Positions 13,274 to 38,882 of a DNA stretch of 42,583 nt are shown here, in pieces; positions within the stretch are counted from its first letter, which is position 1; the number at the start of each line of letters is the position of its first letter. Position numbers and translations under genes: made by a program. The notes under the pieces were generated by a model. It saw only the letters and a program-made list of their open reading frames with translations. It had not been told where the DNA came from and did no database searches. The DNA is taken from NCBI GenBank assembly GCA_028287505.1, contig JAQBPN010000078.1:1-42583 (forward strand), read 5' to 3'. Source of the DNA: Fibrobacterota bacterium. GTDB lineage: Bacteria > Fibrobacterota > Fibrobacteria > UBA11236.

Positions 13274-13477
13274 GTGAGCGACAAGGCGAGCATGACATGG
13301 ATCCGCGGCGGCGCTCTGGTTTCCCTGGGCCTGGCCGCCGTGTTCGCCCTGTTCCGCCGTTGGAGAACCGCCAGAGTGTTCGCCGCGTTCACCGCCGCCT
13401 TCGCGGAAAAATGGCGGGAAACCCGCTTGGCCGCCGACGTCCAGAAGCTGCTTTCCAAAGCCGGGGGGGACGCCTGA
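13274..13477 (+). CDS. Small membrane protein, unknown
   Basis: 67-aa protein with one hydrophobic segment (WIRGGALVSLGLAAVFALF) followed by a basic, amphipathic tail. GTG 13274 is chosen because of the strong GGAGGAGGG upstream (about 13257-13265). The stop overlaps a CTG that may start the next gene, so the two could be coupled. Short length keeps this tentative, but the ribosome binding site is among the strongest in the window. Confidence 0.55.
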   Translation: MSDKASMTWIRGGALVSLGLAAVFALFRRWRTARVFAAFTAAFAEKWRETRLAADVQKLLSKAGGDA

Positions 13478-15093
13478 ACCGGACCGCTCCCGCCGCTCCC
13501 TTCGCCTTCACTGCGGGAGACCGCGCCCAGTTCCGCGGCCTGGGCATCAGCGAGGAACGGGCCCTGGCCCAGTTGGAGATATTCCGGACGGGCCAGAAGC
13601 ACACCCGTCTGGAGCGCGCCTGCACCCTGAACGACGGCATCGTCCGCCTGTCCCAACCGGAAATCGAAAGCCTCTCGGCCACTTACTCTGCCGCCGCGGA
13701 CTCGGGGCGCGCGCTGCAATTCGTGCCCGCCTCCGGCGCGGCCACGCGCATGTTCAAGGGCTTGCTGGCGGTGATGAACCGTTCCGATCGGCCCGCCTTT
13801 CCCGCCCTCGTCAAGGAAGCCTCCCAGGGCGGGGATGCCAAAGAGACGGTGGATTGGTTCAACGGACTGGCCCGGTTTCCCTTCCTGGAACAACTGCGAT
13901 CGACCCTGACCCGGCAAGGCCGGAACCTGGACGCGCTCATGGCAGCCAAGGATTATGCGCCCATCCTGGAAGCCCTCCTGTCTCCGTCGGGCCTGCATTT
14001 TTCCGATCTGCCCAAGGCCCTGATTCCGTTCCACGCCTATCCCGAAGGCGCCCATACCGCCCTGGAGGAACATCTGGCGGAGGCGGCGGGACTGGTCAAG
14101 GACGGCAATGGCGTATGCCGGCTCCACTTCACCGTTTCCCCCGAGCATGAGAAGGCCATCCAGGCCGCGCTGGACGCCGTGCGCCGCAAATACGAGGCTT
14201 CCGGAATCCGCTTCGAAATCGGCCTCTCCCAACAGAAAGCTTCCACCGACACCCTGGCGGTGGATCAGGACAACGCGCCCCTACGTAACGCGGACAATAC
14301 CCTGGCCTTCCGCCCCGGCGGCCATGGGGCGCTCCTGGAAAACCTGTTCCATACCGGCGGGGACATCGTCTTCATCAAGAATATCGACAACCTGGTCCCC
14401 GGACGCCTGCGCGCGGACGTGCTGGCCCGCCGCAAAGCCCTGGGCGGCTACCTGGCGCGCCTGCAGGAGCGCGTCTTCGCCTATCTGGGCCGCTTGCGCG
14501 GCGAGCGGGATACGGACCGGATCGCGAACCTGATCGAAGAGGCCGCCCATTTCGCCGAGCAACGCCTTTGCGCAGTCCCTCCCGAGGCAATGCGCCAGCC
14601 CGCCGCGGATTCCCCGGCCCTGGCGGAAAAGGCCGCCTACCTGATCAAGACCCTGGATAGGCCGCTGCGGGTCTGCGCCATGGTCAAGAACCAGGGAGAA
14701 CCCGGAGGCGGGCCCTTCTGGGTCAAGGCCAAGGACGGATCCATGCGCGCGCAGATCGTGGAGACGGCCCAAGTGGATATGGGTTCGTCCCAACAGCGCA
14801 AGATCCTGGAAGCGGCCACGCATTTCAATCCCGTGGATCTGGTCTGCGCCCTGCGCAATGCCAAGGGCGAGCTCTACAAACTGCAGGACTTCGTCGATCC
14901 GGACGCCTATTTCATCACCGGCAAATCCAAGGACGGCAAGACCCTGAAAGCCCTGGAGCTTCCCGGATTATGGAACGGATCCATGGCGTTCTGGAACACC
15001 GTGTTCGTGGAAATGCCTGTTGAGACATTTAATCCCGTGAAAACGGTAAATGATCTTTTGAGGCCGAGTCATCAGGGGAGAGTGGCGGAATAA
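13474..15093 (+). CDS. DUF4301 family protein
   Basis: 539 aa from the start chosen. The sequence matches my recollection of DUF4301: an N-terminal D..QF...GIS...A..QLEIF..G block, the highly conserved FVPASGAATRMFKGL, the later HPG-like and DNAPLR segments and GHGALLENL, then VFIKNIDNLVP. The GAATRM and IDN motifs recall nucleotidyltransferase-like enzymes, but the function is unknown. The start is odd: no ATG, GTG or TTG lies near the family's usual N-terminus. CTG 13474, which overlaps the previous gene's stop (CTGA) and has GGGGGGGA just upstream, fits best. ATG 13411 is the nearest conventional alternative and would add 21 residues in overlap. Repeat copy 2 follows and probably terminates transcription. 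Confidence 0.82.
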   Translation: MNRTAPAAPFAFTAGDRAQFRGLGISEERALAQLEIFRTGQKHTRLERACTLNDGIVRLSQPEIESLSATYSAAADSGRALQFVPASGAATRMFKGLLAVMNRSDRPAFPALVKEASQGGDAKETVDWFNGLARFPFLEQLRSTLTRQGRNLDALMAAKDYAPILEALLSPSGLHFSDLPKALIPFHAYPEGAHTALEEHLAEAAGLVKDGNGVCRLHFTVSPEHEKAIQAALDAVRRKYEASGIRFEIGLSQQKASTDTLAVDQDNAPLRNADNTLAFRPGGHGALLENLFHTGGDIVFIKNIDNLVPGRLRADVLARRKALGGYLARLQERVFAYLGRLRGERDTDRIANLIEEAAHFAEQRLCAVPPEAMRQPAADSPALAEKAAYLIKTLDRPLRVCAMVKNQGEPGGGPFWVKAKDGSMRAQIVETAQVDMGSSQQRKILEAATHFNPVDLVCALRNAKGELYKLQDFVDPDAYFITGKSKDGKTLKALELPGLWNGSMAFWNTVFVEMPVETFNPVKTVNDLLRPSHQGRVAE

Positions 15094-21225: not shown

Positions 21226-23025
21226 TCAGGGAAGCGGCCGCGCGGGCGGCCCATTTTCCCCGCCTTTGTCCCCGCGGATAAGCTCGGACAATTGCCCTAC
21301 GCAAGGCACGGGCCCCAAGCCCGCCTCCGCAGCCGCGAGGATTTTCCGCGCCTTTTCCCTGTCCCCCATTTTGATATACAGGAATCCGAGATTGCAGTAG
21401 TGGGAAGGATCCCAAGGATTGTCCGTGACCGCCGCCTCCAGACTCCGGATCGCCGTCGCCGTGTCCCCGCTCAAGGCCTGGCGTTGGGCCAGGAAGGAAT
21501 GCGCCATCGCGCGCCAGGGTTTTTCCTCGTTGCCCGCCAGCAGGGAATCGGGAACCAGGGCGGACAGGTATTCGCCATAAGCCGCGCTCCCGTTCCCCGC
21601 TTGCGACAGCATGGTCCCGAATTGCACGCGCATGGCCACATCCGTGGGATGCCCGGCCAGGTAGTGCGCGAAGGCTGTCCGCGATTCCTCCCATTCACCC
21701 AGGGATGCCGCGGTGATTGCCAGCTTCCGTTCCGTATCCGCGTTTCCGAACAAGCTCCACGTTTGGGCCAGGCGCAAGTGGCCCGCGCATGCCGCGGCCG
21801 ATTCGGGACGTCCGAACAGGCGATCCCCGAAGAACGTCTGGGAATGCACGAACGCGCTGTGGCCGGTGAGGATCAGAAATGCCGCCATCGCGAGCCTTGC
21901 CGGGGCGGTCAAACCGATCCGATCCTTCCGGCCGGAACCCCGAGGGGCCGCCGTCAAGCGCTCCCGGTACGCGCGCATAAACCGGATGGCGGCGGCGCCC
22001 CCGATGACGCCGATGCTTCCCGCCAGGAAGATTCCGATCTCATACAGTCCCCGGTATACGGTCATCGTGAACAGGAAGACCACCGTGAAAATCGCCTCCT
22101 CCCCGAGGGTGAAGTCGAATCGCTTCTTCGCGCGCACCGCGGTTTTCTTTTCCTTCCCGGAAAAGCCCCAAGGGATTTTGAATCCCACGCCGATGGCGCC
22201 CGTGGGGCATCCCGCCACGCAGTCCAGGCTCTTGAGGCAATTGGTGTCGACGACGGTTCCGAACTGTTTGAGCTCCTGGATGACCTTGACGCCGGATTTG
22301 CAATTCAGGCTGCACAAGCCGCAGCTCTCGCAGCTTCCGGACAAGACCAGACGGCCCGCGGGGGAAAACCGATCCGCCCACCCGAAGAAGACTCCGTAAG
22401 GGCAGACCGAATAGCAGAAGCTTCGGGAACCCAGGAAATAGACCATCGCCGCGCCGCACACCGCCAGCGTTATGATGGAGAACGCGGGTCCCGGCATGGC
22501 GCGGAAGAGATGGCTGGTGGTCAAGGATCCCCATCCTTCCGCATCCCCTTGGAGGACGAAAGCGGGTTGAGCCCGGTGGGCCAGAATGCGCAGAAGCTGG
22601 GGCCACAAGTAGATGTAAGCCATGATCCCCAAGGGAACCAGGGCCATGGTCCGCGAGCGCAAGGGCCTCGGCTTGATACCGAACTTCCCCAAAAGCCAAG
22701 CGCAGCCGTCCTGGATCGCCAGGATATGGCAACCCCACCCGCAGAAATACCGGCCGAACGCCAAGGTCGCCAGGACCGCGGCCACCGCGAACAGAAACCC
22801 CACCGTGATCACGCCATCGTGCAGAGTATGCAGCGATTCGCTGAACTCCATCGGAGCCAGGGAGCGGCCGTGGAGCTTCCAATGGAGGAAGTGGATGGCG
22901 AACAGGAGATGCACGGCGATGAGGGTGAAGGTCCGCCAGCGGCGAAGGTTCCGCTTCGCGAAAGGTCCGGCCTTGGATCCGGGCGACGGCGCTTTGATAT
23001 CGGGAACGGTGAGAGCTTTCGGCAT
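21226..23025 (-). CDS. Membrane polyferredoxin (NapH/CcoG-like) with C-terminal TPR region
   Basis: 599-aa inner-membrane electron carrier. Several membrane helices span residues 25-215, with FCGWGCHILAIQDG and CYSVCPYG at their ends, the Cys pairs typical of the NapH/CcoG/NosR group. Two ferredoxin motifs follow (CESCGLCSLNC, and CLKSLDCVAGCPTGAI, where one spacing is longer than usual). Two more membrane segments come next, then about 210 residues of TPR-like helices (LRLAQTWSLFGN, NPWDPSHYCNLGFLYIKMGD). A TPR tail on such a polyferredoxin is unusual and may recruit a partner protein. It lies 10 bp downstream of the BNR protein gene, so the two form an operon. Redox partner unknown. Confidence 0.85.
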   Translation of the reverse strand: MPKALTVPDIKAPSPGSKAGPFAKRNLRRWRTFTLIAVHLLFAIHFLHWKLHGRSLAPMEFSESLHTLHDGVITVGFLFAVAAVLATLAFGRYFCGWGCHILAIQDGCAWLLGKFGIKPRPLRSRTMALVPLGIMAYIYLWPQLLRILAHRAQPAFVLQGDAEGWGSLTTSHLFRAMPGPAFSIITLAVCGAAMVYFLGSRSFCYSVCPYGVFFGWADRFSPAGRLVLSGSCESCGLCSLNCKSGVKVIQELKQFGTVVDTNCLKSLDCVAGCPTGAIGVGFKIPWGFSGKEKKTAVRAKKRFDFTLGEEAIFTVVFLFTMTVYRGLYEIGIFLAGSIGVIGGAAAIRFMRAYRERLTAAPRGSGRKDRIGLTAPARLAMAAFLILTGHSAFVHSQTFFGDRLFGRPESAAACAGHLRLAQTWSLFGNADTERKLAITAASLGEWEESRTAFAHYLAGHPTDVAMRVQFGTMLSQAGNGSAAYGEYLSALVPDSLLAGNEEKPWRAMAHSFLAQRQALSGDTATAIRSLEAAVTDNPWDPSHYCNLGFLYIKMGDREKARKILAAAEAGLGPVPCVGQLSELIRGDKGGENGPPARPLP

Positions 23026-32193: not shown

Positions 32194-33888
32194 ATGGACA
32201 GACGCACCATGCTGGCCAAGACTTCGGGTTCGGCCGCCTTGGCCGGGGATCCGGCCTTTGCCAGATACGCCAACGCCGCGCTCCCCAAGCGCGCCGCAGT
32301 GACGGCAGGCCTGGAGCCCTTCGCGGGGGCCTGGGACAAACGCCACGCTTCGCATCTTTTGCGCCGGGTCCTGTTCGGGTTCGCCAAGGCGGATTTGGAC
32401 AAGGCTCTGTCGCTGAACTCGGCCAATTGCGTGGATGCCTTGCTGGACGTGGCGGAGGAAACCCTGCCGCCTCCCGTTTCCACGGATGCGGGCGATACCG
32501 GCGTGACCGTGGGTCAGACCTGGACCACCGTCGCCTATGACGGCAACTTCAACGGCACGCGCCAACGTTCCCTGCAGAACTGGTGGATGGCCCTGATCCT
32601 GGGCCGGAAATTCTCGGCGCGGGAAAAGCTGATCCTGTTCTGGCACAACCACCTGGCCACGGAGCTGGACGTGGTGGGCGATCCCAAGTACGCGTATATG
32701 CACCATCTGCTGTTGCGGAAGAATGCGGTCGGCAATTTCCGGGATCTGGTGCGGCAGATCACCGTCGATCCCGCCATGCTGCAATACCTGAACGGGGACA
32801 GCAACACCAACACCAATCCCAACGAAAACTACGGCCGCGAGCTGCAGGAACTGTTCACGGTGGGAAAGGGGCCGGAAACCGCCGCCGGCAACTATACCAA
32901 CTATACCGAAGAGGACGTGAAGGCCGCGGCCCGGGTGCTGACGGGATGGCGGGACGTGCGGGATACGCCCACGGCGGAATTCCAGGACAAGAAGCACGAC
33001 GTCAAGGACAAGGTCTTCTCGGCCGCCTACGGGAACACGGTCATCACCGGCAGGGCGGGAACGGATGCGGGAACCCTGGAGCTGGACGACCTCATCAAGA
33101 TGATTTTCGCCCAGACCGAGACCGCGAAATACTTCTGCCGCAAACTGTACCGGTTCTTCGTGTACTACGCCATCGACGCCACCGTGGAGGCGAACATCAT
33201 CGCCCCCTTGGCGGACCAATTGATGAAGGCGGACTACGATATCAAGCCCGTGCTCGCCACCTTGTTCAAGAGCGCCCACTTCCATGACGCCGCCAACCTG
33301 GGCTGCCAGATCAAGACGCCCATGGACGTGGTGGCGGGAACCCTCAGCCTATTGGAAGCGGCGCTTCCGGACGGCGCGGACCCGATCAAGCAATACACCC
33401 TGATGGCGCTGATGGTGGGCGAAGCCTCCCGCATGCAGTTGGAGATCGGCAATCCTCCCAACGTCGCGGGCTGGTCGGCCTATTACCAGGATCCGGTCTT
33501 CTACGAAGTGTGGATCAATTCGGACACCCTGCCCCGCCGGGTCCAGTTCACGGATAAGCTGGCTTCCGCCAAGGGCTACGGTTATCCCACGGGCAACGCC
33601 ATCACCACCGATGTGCTGGCGCTGGCCAACGCCACGTCCAAGCCGGGAACGGTGGACACGCTCGTCTCCGAGCTGGCCGCGATCTTCTACCCCATCACCC
33701 TCACGGACGTCCAGATCAAGTACCTGAAGGACGTGATGCTTTCGGGCCTGCCCGAATACGAATGGGGCGTGGAATGGGACGATTACGTGGCCGCGCCTGC
33801 GGACGCGACGAAGATCAAACCGGTGGAAACTCGCCTCAGGGCCCTGTTCGGGGCCATGATGCAATTGGCGGAGTTCCAATTATGCTAG
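32194..33888 (+). CDS. DUF1800 domain protein
   Basis: 564 aa. The N-terminal block AWDKRHASHLLRRVLFGF is the hallmark of DUF1800, followed by LILFWHNHLATELDV, HHLLLRKNAVGNFRDLV, the ITVDPAMLQYLNG motif, NPNENYGRELQELFTVG and the ARVLTGWR segment, all family features. The start is ATG 32194 with GGGAGGA 5 nt upstream; the N-terminus MDRRTMLAKTSGSAAL resembles a Tat-type leader but has only RR without a strong hydrophobic stretch. Its stop lies 14 bp before the DUF1501 start. These two are a widely conserved pair whose biochemical role remains unclear; the pair is probably exported and works as one unit. Confidence 0.93.
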   Translation: MDRRTMLAKTSGSAALAGDPAFARYANAALPKRAAVTAGLEPFAGAWDKRHASHLLRRVLFGFAKADLDKALSLNSANCVDALLDVAEETLPPPVSTDAGDTGVTVGQTWTTVAYDGNFNGTRQRSLQNWWMALILGRKFSAREKLILFWHNHLATELDVVGDPKYAYMHHLLLRKNAVGNFRDLVRQITVDPAMLQYLNGDSNTNTNPNENYGRELQELFTVGKGPETAAGNYTNYTEEDVKAAARVLTGWRDVRDTPTAEFQDKKHDVKDKVFSAAYGNTVITGRAGTDAGTLELDDLIKMIFAQTETAKYFCRKLYRFFVYYAIDATVEANIIAPLADQLMKADYDIKPVLATLFKSAHFHDAANLGCQIKTPMDVVAGTLSLLEAALPDGADPIKQYTLMALMVGEASRMQLEIGNPPNVAGWSAYYQDPVFYEVWINSDTLPRRVQFTDKLASAKGYGYPTGNAITTDVLALANATSKPGTVDTLVSELAAIFYPITLTDVQIKYLKDVMLSGLPEYEWGVEWDDYVAAPADATKIKPVETRLRALFGAMMQLAEFQLC

Positions 33889-33902
33889 AAGGGAAATCCG
33901 GC

Positions 33903-35465
33903 ATGGACAGAAGAAGGTTCCTCAAAATCGGCGCCTCGGCCTGCGCGATCCCGCTGGCCTCCGGCAAACTCACCGCGAGCGTCTACGGCAGCCCGCTTTC
34001 CTCCCTGGCCGCGTTGGCCGGCAACGATCGCGTCCTGGTGGTGATCCGCCTGGACGGCGGCAATGACGGACTCAACATGGTCCTGCCGCTGGATCAATAC
34101 GCCAACCTGGCCAAGGCCAGGGCCAACATCCTCATCCCGGAGGCCAAGGCCCTGAAGCTCACCACCGCCACCGGCCTGCATCCGGCCATGCCGGGCCTGG
34201 CCAAGATGTACGCGGACGGCAAGCTGCGCGTGATCCAGTCCGTGGGGTATCCCAACCACAACCAGAGCCATTTCCGGTCCACGGACATCTGGTTCTCCGC
34301 GTCGGACTACAACCAGGTCCTGACCACGGGGTGGCTTGGACGTTACCTGGAGACGATCTACCCCGGCTACCCGGACGGCTATCCCAGCAAGGATTTCCCG
34401 GATCCCCCCGCCATCCAGATCGGATCCGCCCTCTACACCTTGCTGCAAGGCTCTTCGGTGCCCATGGGCATGGCCGTGGCCAGCGCCACCTCCATCTACT
34501 CCCTGGTGCCCGCGGGATTCGACACGGCGCCGGCCACTCCCGCCGGCCATGAACTCACCTTCATACGCCAGATGTTCACGGAAACCCAGAAATACGGGGA
34601 GTCCATCAAGAAGGCCATCGCCGCGGCGACCAACAAGTCCACCCTGTATCCCGCCACCGGCAACACCCTGTCCGATCAGCTCAAGGGCGTGGCCCGCCTC
34701 ATCGCGGGCGGACTGCAGACCAAGGTCTACGTGGTGTCCCTGCGCGGCTTCGACACCCACGCCAACCAGGTCCTGGCGGCCGATGTCACCACCGGCTCCC
34801 ACGCCGCCTTGCTGACCAAGCTGAACGACGCCATCGTCGCCTTCCAGGACGACCTGCGCCTGCTGGGCCTGGAGAACCGCGTAATGGGCATGACCATGTC
34901 CGAGTTCGGGCGGCGTATCCTTTCCAACGCATCGCTGGGAACCGATCACGGCACCTCGGCGCCCTTGCTGGTATGGGGCGCGGGAGTATCCGGCGGCCTG
35001 CTGGGTACCAATCCCGTCATTCCCGCCACGGTCACGGTGAAGGACAACATCCCCATGCAATACGATTACCGTTCCATCTACTCCAGCATCCTCAAGGACT
35101 GGATGGGCGTTGCGGGAGCCGATTTGCAGACCGTGCTCTTGAAGGACTTCCCCGCCCTGCCCATCGTGGGCTCGCCCGTGCTGCCCCGCAGCCTTGCGGG
35201 CGCCGGCGCGGAGCTGGAGCAGAACTTCCCCAACCCGTTCCGCGGGGCCACCACCTTGCGTTATCGGGTTTCCAGCGGAGACAGGGTGCGCCTGCGCGTA
35301 TTCGATTCCCACGGCGCCCTGGTGCGGGTGGTCGCGGACGGCTTCCACGCGCCCGGAACCTACGCCCGCACGCTGGAGGCGGGCTCTATGAGTCCGGGAA
35401 CCTATTTCTATCAGTTGGAAATGGGCGGCAAGACCTTGCAACGTCCCATGGAAGTGATGCGCTGA
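33903..35465 (+). CDS. DUF1501 protein with C-terminal sorting-domain-like module
   Basis: 520 aa. The Tat leader MDRRRFLKIGASACAIPLAS is clear. The DUF1501 core has VLVVIRLDGGNDGLNMVLPL, the QSVGYPNHNQSHFRSTDIW block and VMGMTMSEFGRRILSN followed by GTDHGTSAPLLVWG, as in sulfatase-like alkaline phosphatase relatives. The last 90 residues form a separate beta module: LEQNFPNPFRGATTLRYRV, VRLRVFDSHGALVRVV, LEAGSMSPGTYFYQLEM, which matches type IX secretion sorting signals. Tat export followed by sorting domain is unusual. ATG 33903 has AAGGGA 8 nt upstream; ATG 33882 would overlap the DUF1800 stop and precede the twin-arginine motif. Confidence 0.92.
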   Translation: MDRRRFLKIGASACAIPLASGKLTASVYGSPLSSLAALAGNDRVLVVIRLDGGNDGLNMVLPLDQYANLAKARANILIPEAKALKLTTATGLHPAMPGLAKMYADGKLRVIQSVGYPNHNQSHFRSTDIWFSASDYNQVLTTGWLGRYLETIYPGYPDGYPSKDFPDPPAIQIGSALYTLLQGSSVPMGMAVASATSIYSLVPAGFDTAPATPAGHELTFIRQMFTETQKYGESIKKAIAAATNKSTLYPATGNTLSDQLKGVARLIAGGLQTKVYVVSLRGFDTHANQVLAADVTTGSHAALLTKLNDAIVAFQDDLRLLGLENRVMGMTMSEFGRRILSNASLGTDHGTSAPLLVWGAGVSGGLLGTNPVIPATVTVKDNIPMQYDYRSIYSSILKDWMGVAGADLQTVLLKDFPALPIVGSPVLPRSLAGAGAELEQNFPNPFRGATTLRYRVSSGDRVRLRVFDSHGALVRVVADGFHAPGTYARTLEAGSMSPGTYFYQLEMGGKTLQRPMEVMR

Positions 35466-35484: not shown

Positions 35485-36183
35485 TCAGGTCGAGACCAGC
35501 GACTTGGCCGGGGCGGGAGGGACGGTGGGTATGGCCGTGCGGATCAACCGGTTGATGATGTAGATGGCGATCAGCGTGGTGCCGACGGCGGCTCCCAGGA
35601 CCACCCAATTCCATACCGTGAGTCCCGATGGATCTTCGAGCAGGCCCTTGCCCACGTGTCCCACGTAGAGATAGAAGAAGATGTCCGGCGTCAGGCCCAG
35701 AAAGGAACTGAGCAGGTATTTGCGGAAGTCCAGTTTGGGAATGGTGAACAGGTAGTTGAGCACCGAGAAGGGAAGCAGGGGATTGAGGCGGATGAGGAAG
35801 ACCAGGATGGGACCATGCCTGGAAATGGCCTCATAGATGGATTCGAAGCGGGGATGATCGTGGCGCAAGGCTTCCACCCGCTTGCGCCATAGGCGCTTTC
35901 CCAGGCCGTAGGTCACGGCGATGGAGGCCAGACCGGAGACGGCCACCAGCAGATAGCCCATCCAGAAACCGTACAGGGTTCCGGCCGCCAGGATCAGTCC
36001 CGTAATGGGGACGAAAAAAACCGAAGCCGCCACGAAAAGGATCACATACGGCACCACCGCGAGGGGACCCAGGGCCCGGAACCAGGCGATAGCAACTTCC
36101 AGGTAATCCTTGAAGGGAAGGAACGCATTGAATGCGATCACGCCGAGCACGACCAGGGTGATGAGCAGGATTTTCGATTTCAT
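35485..36183 (-). CDS. TVP38/TMEM64 (VTT/DedA-like) membrane protein
   Basis: 232 aa with about five membrane segments. The conserved VTT core is visible: VFFVPITGLILAAGTLYGFW and VSGLASIAVTYGLGKRLWR, then ILVFLIRLNPLLPFSVLNYL with the R.NP..PF motif, IPKLDFRKYLLSSFLGLTPD and a final helix. Members are lipid scramblase-like or DedA-type transporters. ATG 36183 is the start, with no clear Shine-Dalgarno. It is convergent with the DUF1501 gene (19 bp gap) and 171 bp downstream of the flavoprotein fusion gene on the same strand. Confidence 0.9.
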   Translation of the reverse strand: MKSKILLITLVVLGVIAFNAFLPFKDYLEVAIAWFRALGPLAVVPYVILFVAASVFFVPITGLILAAGTLYGFWMGYLLVAVSGLASIAVTYGLGKRLWRKRVEALRHDHPRFESIYEAISRHGPILVFLIRLNPLLPFSVLNYLFTIPKLDFRKYLLSSFLGLTPDIFFYLYVGHVGKGLLEDPSGLTVWNWVVLGAAVGTTLIAIYIINRLIRTAIPTVPPAPAKSLVST

Positions 36184-36354: not shown

Positions 36355-38781
36355 CTAGCGGATGCCGGCCTTCCAGTCATCCTTGGAAAAGGCCGGGACT
36401 TCCTGGCGGGTGCGGTTTTCGGAATCCGCCGCGGCCTTGATTTTGCCGAAGGAAAGGACCTCGGTGGGGCAGGCTTCCACGCATGCGGAACACCGGACGC
36501 ATTCCACATCGTTCATGGGAACGCCCTTGTTGGCGTAGTTCATGACATCGATGCCCATGTGGCAGACCTTTGTGCAGATGTTGCACGAAATGCATTTCTT
36601 CTTCTCGGCGAAGATGCGGTATTTGGAGAAGCGGCTGTAGATGTGCATGAGCGCCGCCAACGGGCATCCATAGCGGCACCAGATGCGGCCGGACAGGAAG
36701 AAGTACACCCCCAGTCCCAACACGCCCGCGAAGAACACATCGATGGCGAGCTTGTACGCGCCCCGCAGGGTATCCACCCAGGCCGGGTGCCCGCCCATGT
36801 GATTGGTGAAATAGCCGAATGCGGTGACCACGACCGCCGAGGCCAATACGAATTGCCCGATATTGTCCAGCTTCTTGGGCGTCTTGCCGTGGGGCGCCTG
36901 CATGCGGTATTCATCGCCAAGGGTTTCCGCCATGCCGCCGCAGCTGCAGATCCAACCGCAATAAGCGCCCTTGCCCCATTGCCAGACGATGAGGGCCAGG
37001 ATCCCGAAAGTCTGCACGAACGGGAACCAGGTCCAGAAGGAACTGGTGCCGAAATCGTTCATGTCCAGGGGCCAGAACAGCACCAGCCCGAAGCAGGACC
37101 ATTTTCCGGAGGGGAAGATCTCCCGCATCACGTAGCCGTCCGGCGAGAAATTGGCCTTGATGAGCGGTTCGAAGAGGTGGAAGGGAAGCAGGAACAGGAA
37201 GAAAACCTGGACGATGATGAGGGACAGCACCTGGTATTTGATATATCGCGTCTTCTTCACCATCATGCGCCGGACGCCGAAGAGGAGGATGGTGATGCTG
37301 TAGAGGAGGCTATAGTAATAGGTGGGCTCTTCCACCCAGCCGGCGGTGCGGCCGAGCAGGAAGTGGAAATAGACCCAGGTGAAGAATACGGCCGCCGCGA
37401 TGAAGTACCCGTACTTGATCCTGGACCAGGCGGTGCCGAAGTATTTGTCGCGCCGCTTGATCATCATGGCCAACGCCGCCGTTCCGCTGGCCAGGAATGC
37501 CAGCGACCCCAGCCAACCCAGGTAGAAGTTGAGGGACGAGTACCAGGAATAATGGTTCAATGACCAGCTCAGTTTGCCTGTCACGGCGCCCGAAAAGGGA
37601 CCGGTGAGGTAGGCGAGGATGAATCCGGGCAGGGAATGGACATCGTGGAACAGGTCCCGGGCCACGCCCGCCTTGCCGAAATAGAGCATGGAGAAGAAGC
37701 TGATCATGGCCACGACGTAGACATACCAGGAGCGATCCTTCTGGCCCGCCATGCGCAGGCCCGATCGCTTGAAGAATGCGGTCGGCAATTCCCTGCCGAT
37801 GAGGACGAACACCTCGTCCGTCTTGATGGTCTTCTCGCCGTCCGCGGTCTTGAGGACGGTTTCGCCCGGGCGGATGGCCTTGGGCTGGGATTGGAAAATG
37901 GGTTCGATGAGACCGGCCTCCCGGAGGAACTCGAAGCGCTCCAGGTTTTCCGGTTTGGGCCGGTCCAGGGACTCCTTGCGATAGGAAAGCGTGACCCGGT
38001 TGCCCGCCTCCGCCAACGCGGCCGCGGCCTCCACGGCCGAATCGCCTCCGCCCACCACCAGGATGTCTTCCCCGTGGAATTCCCCGGGATCGAAAAGCCG
38101 GTTGAATACATTGGGCTGGTGCTCGCCGGGAACGCCCAGTTTGCGGGCGTCTCCGGTCTTGCCGATGGCCAGCACCACGCGCAAGGCCTGGAGCGGACCC
38201 TGGTTGGTTTCCAGGGTCAGCACATCGCCGGCGTCCTGGGAAAGGCGCTTGCGCTTGATGGCTTCCACGCGCACGCCCATCCGGGTGCGCAGGGATTTGC
38301 CGGAGATCTGGCGGTGCAGATCCTCGAGCAGGGTTTCCTTATAGCCGTCCTTGATGGAAAGCGGCGACTCCTCCCGATAGCCGTCCGGCTTTGCCAGGAT
38401 GAGCTTGTGCTTTGGGAAGTTCTCGATGGTACTGAAGAGGCCCGAGGACTCGAGCAATTCGTAGTCCAGGCCCCGCTTTTCGCATTCCAGCGCGCAGGCC
38501 ACCCCGGCCGGCCCACCGCCGATGATGAGCACATCGCGGACATCGCCGGACGCGGGCTTACGGGACGCGAACTCCTTGTCGGCCAGAATGTGGCGCACCA
38601 CCTTGGCGCCGCTTTCGGAAGCCAGTTTCAGGAGCGGGGTTCCCGTCAGGTCACCGACGATGTAAACGCCTTTGACCGAAGATTGGTAGTTGGAATCTAT
38701 TTCGGGATAGCGCTCCACTTCCCCGACCGGGTTGCCTTTTTGGAGCCAGCGCAGATAAGTGGCGATGAGAGGAACTTGCAC
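36355..38781 (-). CDS. Flavoprotein-polyferredoxin fusion, apparently permuted FAD domain
   Basis: 808 aa. Residues 80-375 resemble a thioredoxin-reductase-type flavoprotein: FAD loop VLIIGGGPAGVACALECEKRG, NAD(P)-binding VVGGGDSAVEAAAALAEAG and TDEVFVLIGRELPT. The GVYIVGDLTGTPLLKLA block that normally closes the FAD domain after these lies instead at residues 35-60, so the fold looks circularly permuted. About six membrane helices follow, then NosR/NapH-like CGWICSCGG, WCRYGCP, and two ferredoxin motifs CISCNICTKVCHMGI and CVRCSACVEACP. It would carry electrons between NAD(P)H and a membrane or periplasmic partner. GTG 38781 (GAGG upstream) fits better than GTG 38871. Confidence 0.85.
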   Translation of the reverse strand: MQVPLIATYLRWLQKGNPVGEVERYPEIDSNYQSSVKGVYIVGDLTGTPLLKLASESGAKVVRHILADKEFASRKPASGDVRDVLIIGGGPAGVACALECEKRGLDYELLESSGLFSTIENFPKHKLILAKPDGYREESPLSIKDGYKETLLEDLHRQISGKSLRTRMGVRVEAIKRKRLSQDAGDVLTLETNQGPLQALRVVLAIGKTGDARKLGVPGEHQPNVFNRLFDPGEFHGEDILVVGGGDSAVEAAAALAEAGNRVTLSYRKESLDRPKPENLERFEFLREAGLIEPIFQSQPKAIRPGETVLKTADGEKTIKTDEVFVLIGRELPTAFFKRSGLRMAGQKDRSWYVYVVAMISFFSMLYFGKAGVARDLFHDVHSLPGFILAYLTGPFSGAVTGKLSWSLNHYSWYSSLNFYLGWLGSLAFLASGTAALAMMIKRRDKYFGTAWSRIKYGYFIAAAVFFTWVYFHFLLGRTAGWVEEPTYYYSLLYSITILLFGVRRMMVKKTRYIKYQVLSLIIVQVFFLFLLPFHLFEPLIKANFSPDGYVMREIFPSGKWSCFGLVLFWPLDMNDFGTSSFWTWFPFVQTFGILALIVWQWGKGAYCGWICSCGGMAETLGDEYRMQAPHGKTPKKLDNIGQFVLASAVVVTAFGYFTNHMGGHPAWVDTLRGAYKLAIDVFFAGVLGLGVYFFLSGRIWCRYGCPLAALMHIYSRFSKYRIFAEKKKCISCNICTKVCHMGIDVMNYANKGVPMNDVECVRCSACVEACPTEVLSFGKIKAAADSENRTRQEVPAFSKDDWKAGIR

Positions 38782-38882
38782 GCAGACCTCGTTCTTTCCC
38801 GGAAAATAGCTTATTCGGAGGATTAGTCCCGGCCCGGTGGAAAACGTTTCCAGGAGCGGGCGAGGTCGCACTTTGCTAAACT

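Follow-up and report, generated by a model that had tools for sequence, protein, structure and literature searches.

A circularly permuted thioredoxin reductase-type flavoprotein fused to a membrane polyferredoxin in Fibrobacterota and many other phyla

The gene and the order of its parts

The sequence analysed here (the window) is the 42,583-nucleotide contig JAQBPN010000078.1 of a Fibrobacterota bacterium (assembly GCA_028287505.1), and its minus strand carries a gene encoding a flavoprotein fused to a membrane polyferredoxin, the parts of which are listed in Table 1. The open frame covers positions 36355-38871 and would encode 838 amino acids (aa) when taken to its upstream-most start. The GTG at 38781 is the likely start, giving the protein of 808 aa used for numbering, and this later start is favoured by the relative in genome G004, which has an in-frame TAG ahead of the segment closing the flavin adenine dinucleotide (FAD) domain. 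From the N-terminus, the chain runs through this closing segment, the FAD loop, the NAD(P) loop, membrane helices from about residue 350 and, finally, the cysteine motifs. A preliminary description of the window had placed a GVYIVGDLTG motif at residues 35-60, before the first Rossmann loop, and had the chain continue into membrane helices and NosR-like ferredoxin motifs. Both observations are borne out: the motif lies at residues 38-47 and the FAD loop at 88-93, and the Fer4_5 model (PF12801) scored 31.6 bits against a gathering score of 22, the full NapH model (TIGR02163) giving 54.8 bits, below its curated cut-off of 213.05.

Table 1. Features of the permuted flavoprotein gene and its neighbour in the window
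Feature	Position	Strand	Details
Whole gene, permuted flavoprotein fused to membrane polyferredoxin	36355..38781	-	808 aa; likely GTG start at 38781; stop included
FAD-closing segment, N-terminal	38557..38724	-	about residues 20-75; GVYIVGDLTG at 38-47, helix 51-67
FAD + NAD(P) core, thioredoxin reductase/YpdA type, no CxxC	37741..38541	-	residues 81-347
FAD dinucleotide loop GGGPAG	38503..38520	-	residues 88-93
NAD(P) dinucleotide loop GGGDSA	38035..38052	-	residues 244-249
Membrane part with NapH/NosR-type motifs	36622..37734	-	residues 350-720; C608xxxCxC and C702xxxCP
Two [4Fe-4S] motifs	36469..36594	-	Cys 730, 733, 736, 740 and 761, 764, 767, 771
VTT/TVP38-family membrane protein, next gene	35485..36183	-	same strand; beside the family gene in 4/4 same-genus loci that carry it

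Profile and sequence searches agree on the origin of these parts. In the NCBIfam comparison, the N-terminal stretch aligned with positions 290-334 of dihydrolipoyl dehydrogenase, that is, beyond the NAD domain of that enzyme, and the flavin core aligned with positions 1-270 of the 316 of YpdA. Similarly, a sequence search against solved structures matched residues 28-70 to residues 315-358 of glutathione reductase (E 1.6e-5) and the core to YpdA. The positions of the segment in dihydrolipoyl dehydrogenase and glutathione reductase show that the piece usually found after the NAD(P) domain stands first here.

The predicted fold is consistent with this arrangement. Structure prediction had been proposed in the preliminary description as a way of checking whether the segment completes the FAD domain, and the AlphaFold2 model built on 72 sequences gave the window protein a predicted local distance difference test score (pLDDT) of 88.7 and a predicted template-modelling score (pTM) of 0.86, with the blocks of residues 21-70 at pLDDT 91-96, a strand at 39-41 and a helix at 51-67. 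A second AlphaFold2 model, of a divergent homologue (L062, 33-34% identical), depicted the same elements with pLDDT 89.0 and pTM 0.86, so that both models assign high confidence to the segment. The closest solved fold was that of YpdA/Bdr (Z 24.3, root-mean-square deviation 3.0, 267 aligned residues), in structural alignments which preserve sequence order and begin at residues 77-82, and which hence omit the moved segment and cannot display a permutation. The other end of these alignments suggests where the iron-sulfur clusters may lie. Thirty of the 50 structural rows for the window model extend to the first [4Fe-4S] loop or just past it (model residues 731-747), as do 27/50 for L062 (676-718). 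In the thioredoxin reductase (TrxR) rows that do so, the last aligned residue is 731-735 (676-678 in L062), within the first [4Fe-4S] loop (Cys733; Cys676 in L062), and this loop is aligned with residues 285-296, approximately, of the TrxR chain, as read from the ends of the ranges. Since these TrxR residues are presumably close to the flavin, the first cluster may dock at the flavin in the predicted fold.

Conservation of the order and its restoration

Relatives were taken from a scan of named genomes, from which the best 80 loci of at least 546, by similarity to the permuted query, were used. The permuted order was present in all 71 assessable loci among them, 68 recognized by pattern and three (L071, L072 and L084) by reading; the remaining nine (L029, L049, L050, L058, L069, L070, L080, L083 and L088) were not assessable owing to a contig end, masking, frame or mis-anchoring. 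The loci with this order span many phyla, among them Ignavibacteriota, Bacteroidota, Planctomycetota, Verrucomicrobiota, Acidobacteriota, Gemmatimonadota and Latescibacterota, and a Pseudoalteromonas plasmid also encodes a family member. Within the same genus, the gene was found in three of five other genomes (69-85% identity) and was absent from two, and in the phylum as a whole the protein occurs in 14 of 167 genomes. A single scan of viral contigs with the window protein yielded no relative. Two annotated members of the family are named only "NAD(P)-binding domain-containing protein".

An alignment of 72 rows was used to examine the conservation of the individual motifs. G43, G47 and P49 were invariant in 72/72 rows, the two glycines being partly selected because 68 of the rows had been picked with a GD-type pattern, and residue 44 was D in 69 rows, with E twice and S once. 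Each of the eight ferredoxin cysteines was kept in 71 or 72 rows, and in the CxxxCP motif C702 was present in 72/72, C706 in 71/72 and P707 was invariant. On the other hand, no row had a CxxC in the flavin core (0/72, residues 78-348), which indicates that the family is not thioredoxin reductase proper. Neither was a GD-like motif found between residues 333 and 380 in 70/72 rows, the other two (L030 and L075) having only GEL or GEM there. From P333 to the first hydrophobic stretch of 19 residues the median distance was 15 residues at a hydropathy threshold of 1.0 (30 or fewer in 67/72 rows; maximum, 37) and 16 at a threshold of 1.4 (30 or fewer in 53/72, more than 30 in 19/72; maximum, 128). 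This short distance leaves little room for a second closing segment, of about 55 residues, ahead of the membrane. The segment and the core are joined by a linker of variable length, with insertions in P0002 and P0003, as would be expected of a new joint between old termini.

If the segment has been moved, returning it to the C-terminal end of the core should improve the match to profiles of canonical enzymes, and this was scored with the shuffled segment as a control. With the window core, the restored order raised the score for dihydrolipoyl dehydrogenase from 28.8 to 53.8 bits (shuffled, 27.9), for thioredoxin reductase from 58.8 to 70.0 (shuffled, 57.8) and for YpdA from 129.9 to 140.2 (shuffled, 129.9). 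The homologue L015 behaved likewise, with increases from 54.0 to 73.4 (shuffled, 53.2), from 86.6 to 100.2 (shuffled, 86.0) and from 155.8 to 164.4 bits (shuffled, 157.2), respectively. These three profiles are a selection from longer lists, on which several further disulfide-reductase profiles also gained. As a two-sequence YpdA profile, whose closing segment lacks GD, was a weak yardstick for the whole family, a TrxB-type profile was built with 11 canonical sequences from 14 loci (L156, which has a stop, L155 and L157 were omitted, and L158 was included though below the family cut-off). On this profile, the restored order scored above both controls, shuffled and reversed, in 72/72 rows, above the natural order in 71/72 and above the core alone in 67/72.

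The search for an unfused homologue, also put forward in the preliminary description, yielded a protein of Emticicia (WP_015031197, 440 aa, an NAD(P)-binding domain-containing protein), the one protein of this type seen. It has an N-terminal stretch that is hydrophobic by eye, followed by a two-cluster ferredoxin and then the permuted module, and its residues 120-429 align with the window protein in one unbroken piece. When it was used as query against the genomes of the phylum, 12 of the 14 with a match aligned from residue 120 and the other two from 165-168. Thus, it shares the permuted module with the window protein and differs from it in that the ferredoxin stands ahead, GE replaces GD and there is no membrane polyferredoxin at the end; a ferredoxin with two clusters accompanies the flavin module in either form. 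Since the Emticicia module is permuted and has no membrane part, the permutation is not tied to that fusion and, judging from these sequences, is either older than the membrane fusion or independent of it. It had been proposed that a permutation would free an end of the flavin domain for joining to the membrane part: this proposal is supported in part, the Emticicia relative carrying the permuted module with a ferredoxin ahead of it and no membrane polyferredoxin. The Emticicia gene (L014, 3641-8927) stands beside genes of the cytochrome c3 family and near a ccsA gene.

Genomic neighbours and the TIGR04282 link

The VTT/TVP38 gene that follows the flavoprotein gene in the window also adjoins it in three other same-genus loci. 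In other phyla the surroundings differ, and they were compared in the 72 rows using flanks of up to 8 kb, short contigs included, and gene clusters defined by single-linkage BLAST. Eighteen rows lie near a DUF547 gene, 16 near a glycosyltransferase/DUF2064 cluster, which mixes several kinds of glycosyltransferase, and 12 near an ArsM/ArsS cluster, the members of which were profile-checked in part. Twenty rows are near one or the other of the latter two, seven of the 72 are near both plus DUF547, and on a quick tree, with no shuffled control, the either-cluster neighbourhood changes 15 times. In a locus from Ignavibacteriales (L019), ArsS, TIGR04282, TIGR04283 and TIGR04169 were above their cut-offs and an ArsM-like methyltransferase was below its own. 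In three loci of Gemmatimonadota and Latescibacterota (L040, L063 and L074) a gene of one BLAST cluster stands directly upstream of the family gene, and that of L040 is a DUF3179 gene with a FlgD_ig domain.

Within the phylum, the clearest association is with TIGR04282. At E 1e-15 a match was found in 14/14 genomes with the flavoprotein versus 3/153 without it (by genus, 10/10 versus 2/30), and above the cut-off in 12/14 versus 1/153. Eight of the 14 genomes have the two genes no more than a few kb apart. The corresponding figures were 5/14 versus 2/153 for ArsS and, at E 1e-20, 10/14 versus 6/153 for TIGR04283, one match alone being above the cut-off. The p-values for these contrasts carry no correction for shared ancestry. 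Of the two same-genus genomes without the protein, G001 (90% complete) has a TIGR04282 fragment with a stop and G005 (95% complete) has no match. The TIGR04282 link is therefore stronger than that with ArsS, and the arsenosugar label is not transferable to this organism. In fact, a plain arsenosugar enzyme is not an acceptable description here, as the genome of the window has neither ArsS (TIGR04167) above cut-off nor TIGR04283 at the threshold used. TIGR04282 glycosyltransferase-like proteins, sometimes together with arsenosugar genes, point to a candidate pathway and are the best clue to the partner of the family. In the genome of the window, the TIGR04282 locus (L135, 5244-9436 of contig C117) stands beside a CelA/PgaC-like glycosyltransferase and another glycosyltransferase-like frame, and its gene set resembles that around the family gene in Pseudoalteromonas.

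Other genes of the window include a second Fer4_5 (NapH-like) iron-sulfur open reading frame of 599 aa on the minus strand (21226-23025), inside which lies the second match of this genome to the query (22183-22485, E 2.3e-8). On the plus strand are a DUF4301 protein with a very strong match (13297-15093; 4.5e-187) and adjacent DUF1800 and DUF1501 genes (32194-35465), the DUF1501 protein showing a weak C-terminal sorting-domain match below cut-off.

Proposed mechanism, alternatives and known systems

The circular permutation is conserved, and the family is that of a flavoprotein of the TrxR/ferredoxin-NADP reductase type fused to a NapH-like membrane polyferredoxin. The permutation suggested in the preliminary description is supported by the conserved segment, the little room left after the NAD domain, the longer matches to canonical profiles and the confident models. 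We believe, with a probability of about 0.78, that the protein is a single-chain membrane oxidoreductase in which the permuted TrxR/YpdA-type flavoprotein passes electrons from NAD(P)H via FAD and [4Fe-4S] clusters to the membrane. In this enzyme, the closing segment of the FAD domain begins the protein and the variable linker bridges the original C- and N-termini. The chain leaves the module where the NAD(P) domain ends and enters the membrane soon after. NAD(P)H would most likely reduce the FAD, probably on the cytoplasmic side, and the FAD would hand single electrons to the two [4Fe-4S] clusters docked beside it, from which the membrane cysteine motifs may relay them to a lipid, a quinone or an extracytosolic acceptor. 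The odds are even for the broader proposal that these proteins form a widespread class of single-chain NAD(P)H oxidoreductases of the membrane, in which the permutation sets FAD against the [4Fe-4S] clusters of the polyferredoxin and which would feed electrons into a step at the membrane in an undescribed, TIGR04282-marked glycoconjugate pathway.

Several points weigh against these proposals. The binding of FAD and NAD(P)H is putative, being read from sequence motifs, and 20/50 structural rows (23/50 for L062) stop at the NAD domain and are uninformative on the clusters. The sample is close to the permuted query, so that relatives with another domain order are possibly under-sampled, and the 72 rows share descent, so that tests on them are not independent. 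In the restoration experiment, the TrxB-type profile showed a modest gain (over the shuffled segment, a median of 6.1 bits and a minimum of 0.1), the weak two-sequence YpdA profile preferred the restored to the shuffled order in 60/72 rows and to the reversed one in 52/72, and some profiles matching only one loop stayed level or dropped slightly. As to the pathway, the absence of ArsS and TIGR04283 from this genome at the thresholds given counts in the same direction, and its TIGR04282 gene lies on a contig other than the window, so that the pathway is putative in this organism.

Other explanations of the domain order can be considered. An artefact of assembly or sequencing has a negligible chance of being correct and was rejected: the order recurs in three same-genus genomes and in the 71 assessable loci of many phyla, which excludes a rearrangement of this contig. 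It is very unlikely that the N-terminal segment forms a small domain of its own, or is the remnant of a duplicated reductase, and has no more than a resemblance to the FAD-closing motif, with the core closed in some other way. The variable linker behind the segment would fit such a domain, as would the 19 rows with more than 30 residues between P333 and a strongly hydrophobic stretch at the threshold of 1.4, but at a threshold of 1.0 this distance never exceeds 37, the GD-like motif is conserved up front and has no equivalent at 333-380 beyond the GEL/GEM of two rows, and the restored order lifts the scores. Moreover, the AlphaFold2 models, with one confident strand and one helix as in a closing segment, make separate folding of the segment improbable.

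Somewhat more plausible, though still quite unlikely, is a domain swap in which the FAD domain completed by the segment is that of a dimer partner and not that of the segment's own chain, and this possibility also bears against the proposals above. Thioredoxin reductase-type enzymes are dimers, and the stretch joining segment to core is variable in length and less well modelled (block 71-80 at pLDDT 79). The monomer models already reach high confidence, although a monomer prediction is compatible with a swap. A different question is the direction of electron flow, since the membrane part might oxidise a quinol or a lipid and the flavin module reduce NAD(P)+ or another cytoplasmic acceptor. We regard this as unlikely, because NAD(P)+ reduction from quinol is uphill and the TrxR/YpdA class normally draws electrons from NAD(P)H.

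We know of no natural circular permutation described for the flavoprotein fold with two dinucleotide-binding domains, and searches of the open-licence PMC literature on permutation, arsenosugar genes and NapH-type fusions disclosed no permuted TrxR-type enzyme. The family may represent a concrete case of a topology re-cut to place a flavin beside an iron-sulfur cluster, in many phyla and tied to a membrane electron wire, and it gives an initial route into the function of a large uncharacterised family and of the TIGR04282-linked pathway. Among known systems, the membrane iron-sulfur proteins NapH, NosR and PceC share with the window protein the Fer4_5 domain, the CxxxCP motif and the twin [4Fe-4S] motifs after membrane helices and, to our knowledge, have no NAD(P)H flavoprotein as a part. 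The flavin core is best matched, in sequence and fold, by YpdA/Bdr (TIGR04018; PDB 7a7b and 7a76), with 129.7 bits in the native order and 140.2 in the restored one, far below the curated cut-off of 339.9. YpdA is soluble and its closing segment is C-terminal, so that its order of FAD core, NAD(P) domain and closing segment contrasts with that of the window protein, in which the closing segment comes first. With thioredoxin reductase (TIGR01292; 57.4 bits native and 70.0 restored, cut-off 343.45) the protein has in common the fold of two dinucleotide-binding domains, and its profile match reaches into the closing segment once the order is restored, whereas the redox CxxC of the NAD(P) domain is absent from the family, which is permuted and membrane-bound. 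Finally, the ferredoxin-NADP reductases of the TrxR type (PDB 3ab1, 3lzw and 6gar) belong to the same fold class and, like the window protein, have no disulfide; they exchange electrons with an iron-sulfur protein but are soluble and unpermuted, with a separate ferredoxin, whereas in the family described here the flavin module and the ferredoxin are parts of one permuted, membrane-bound chain.
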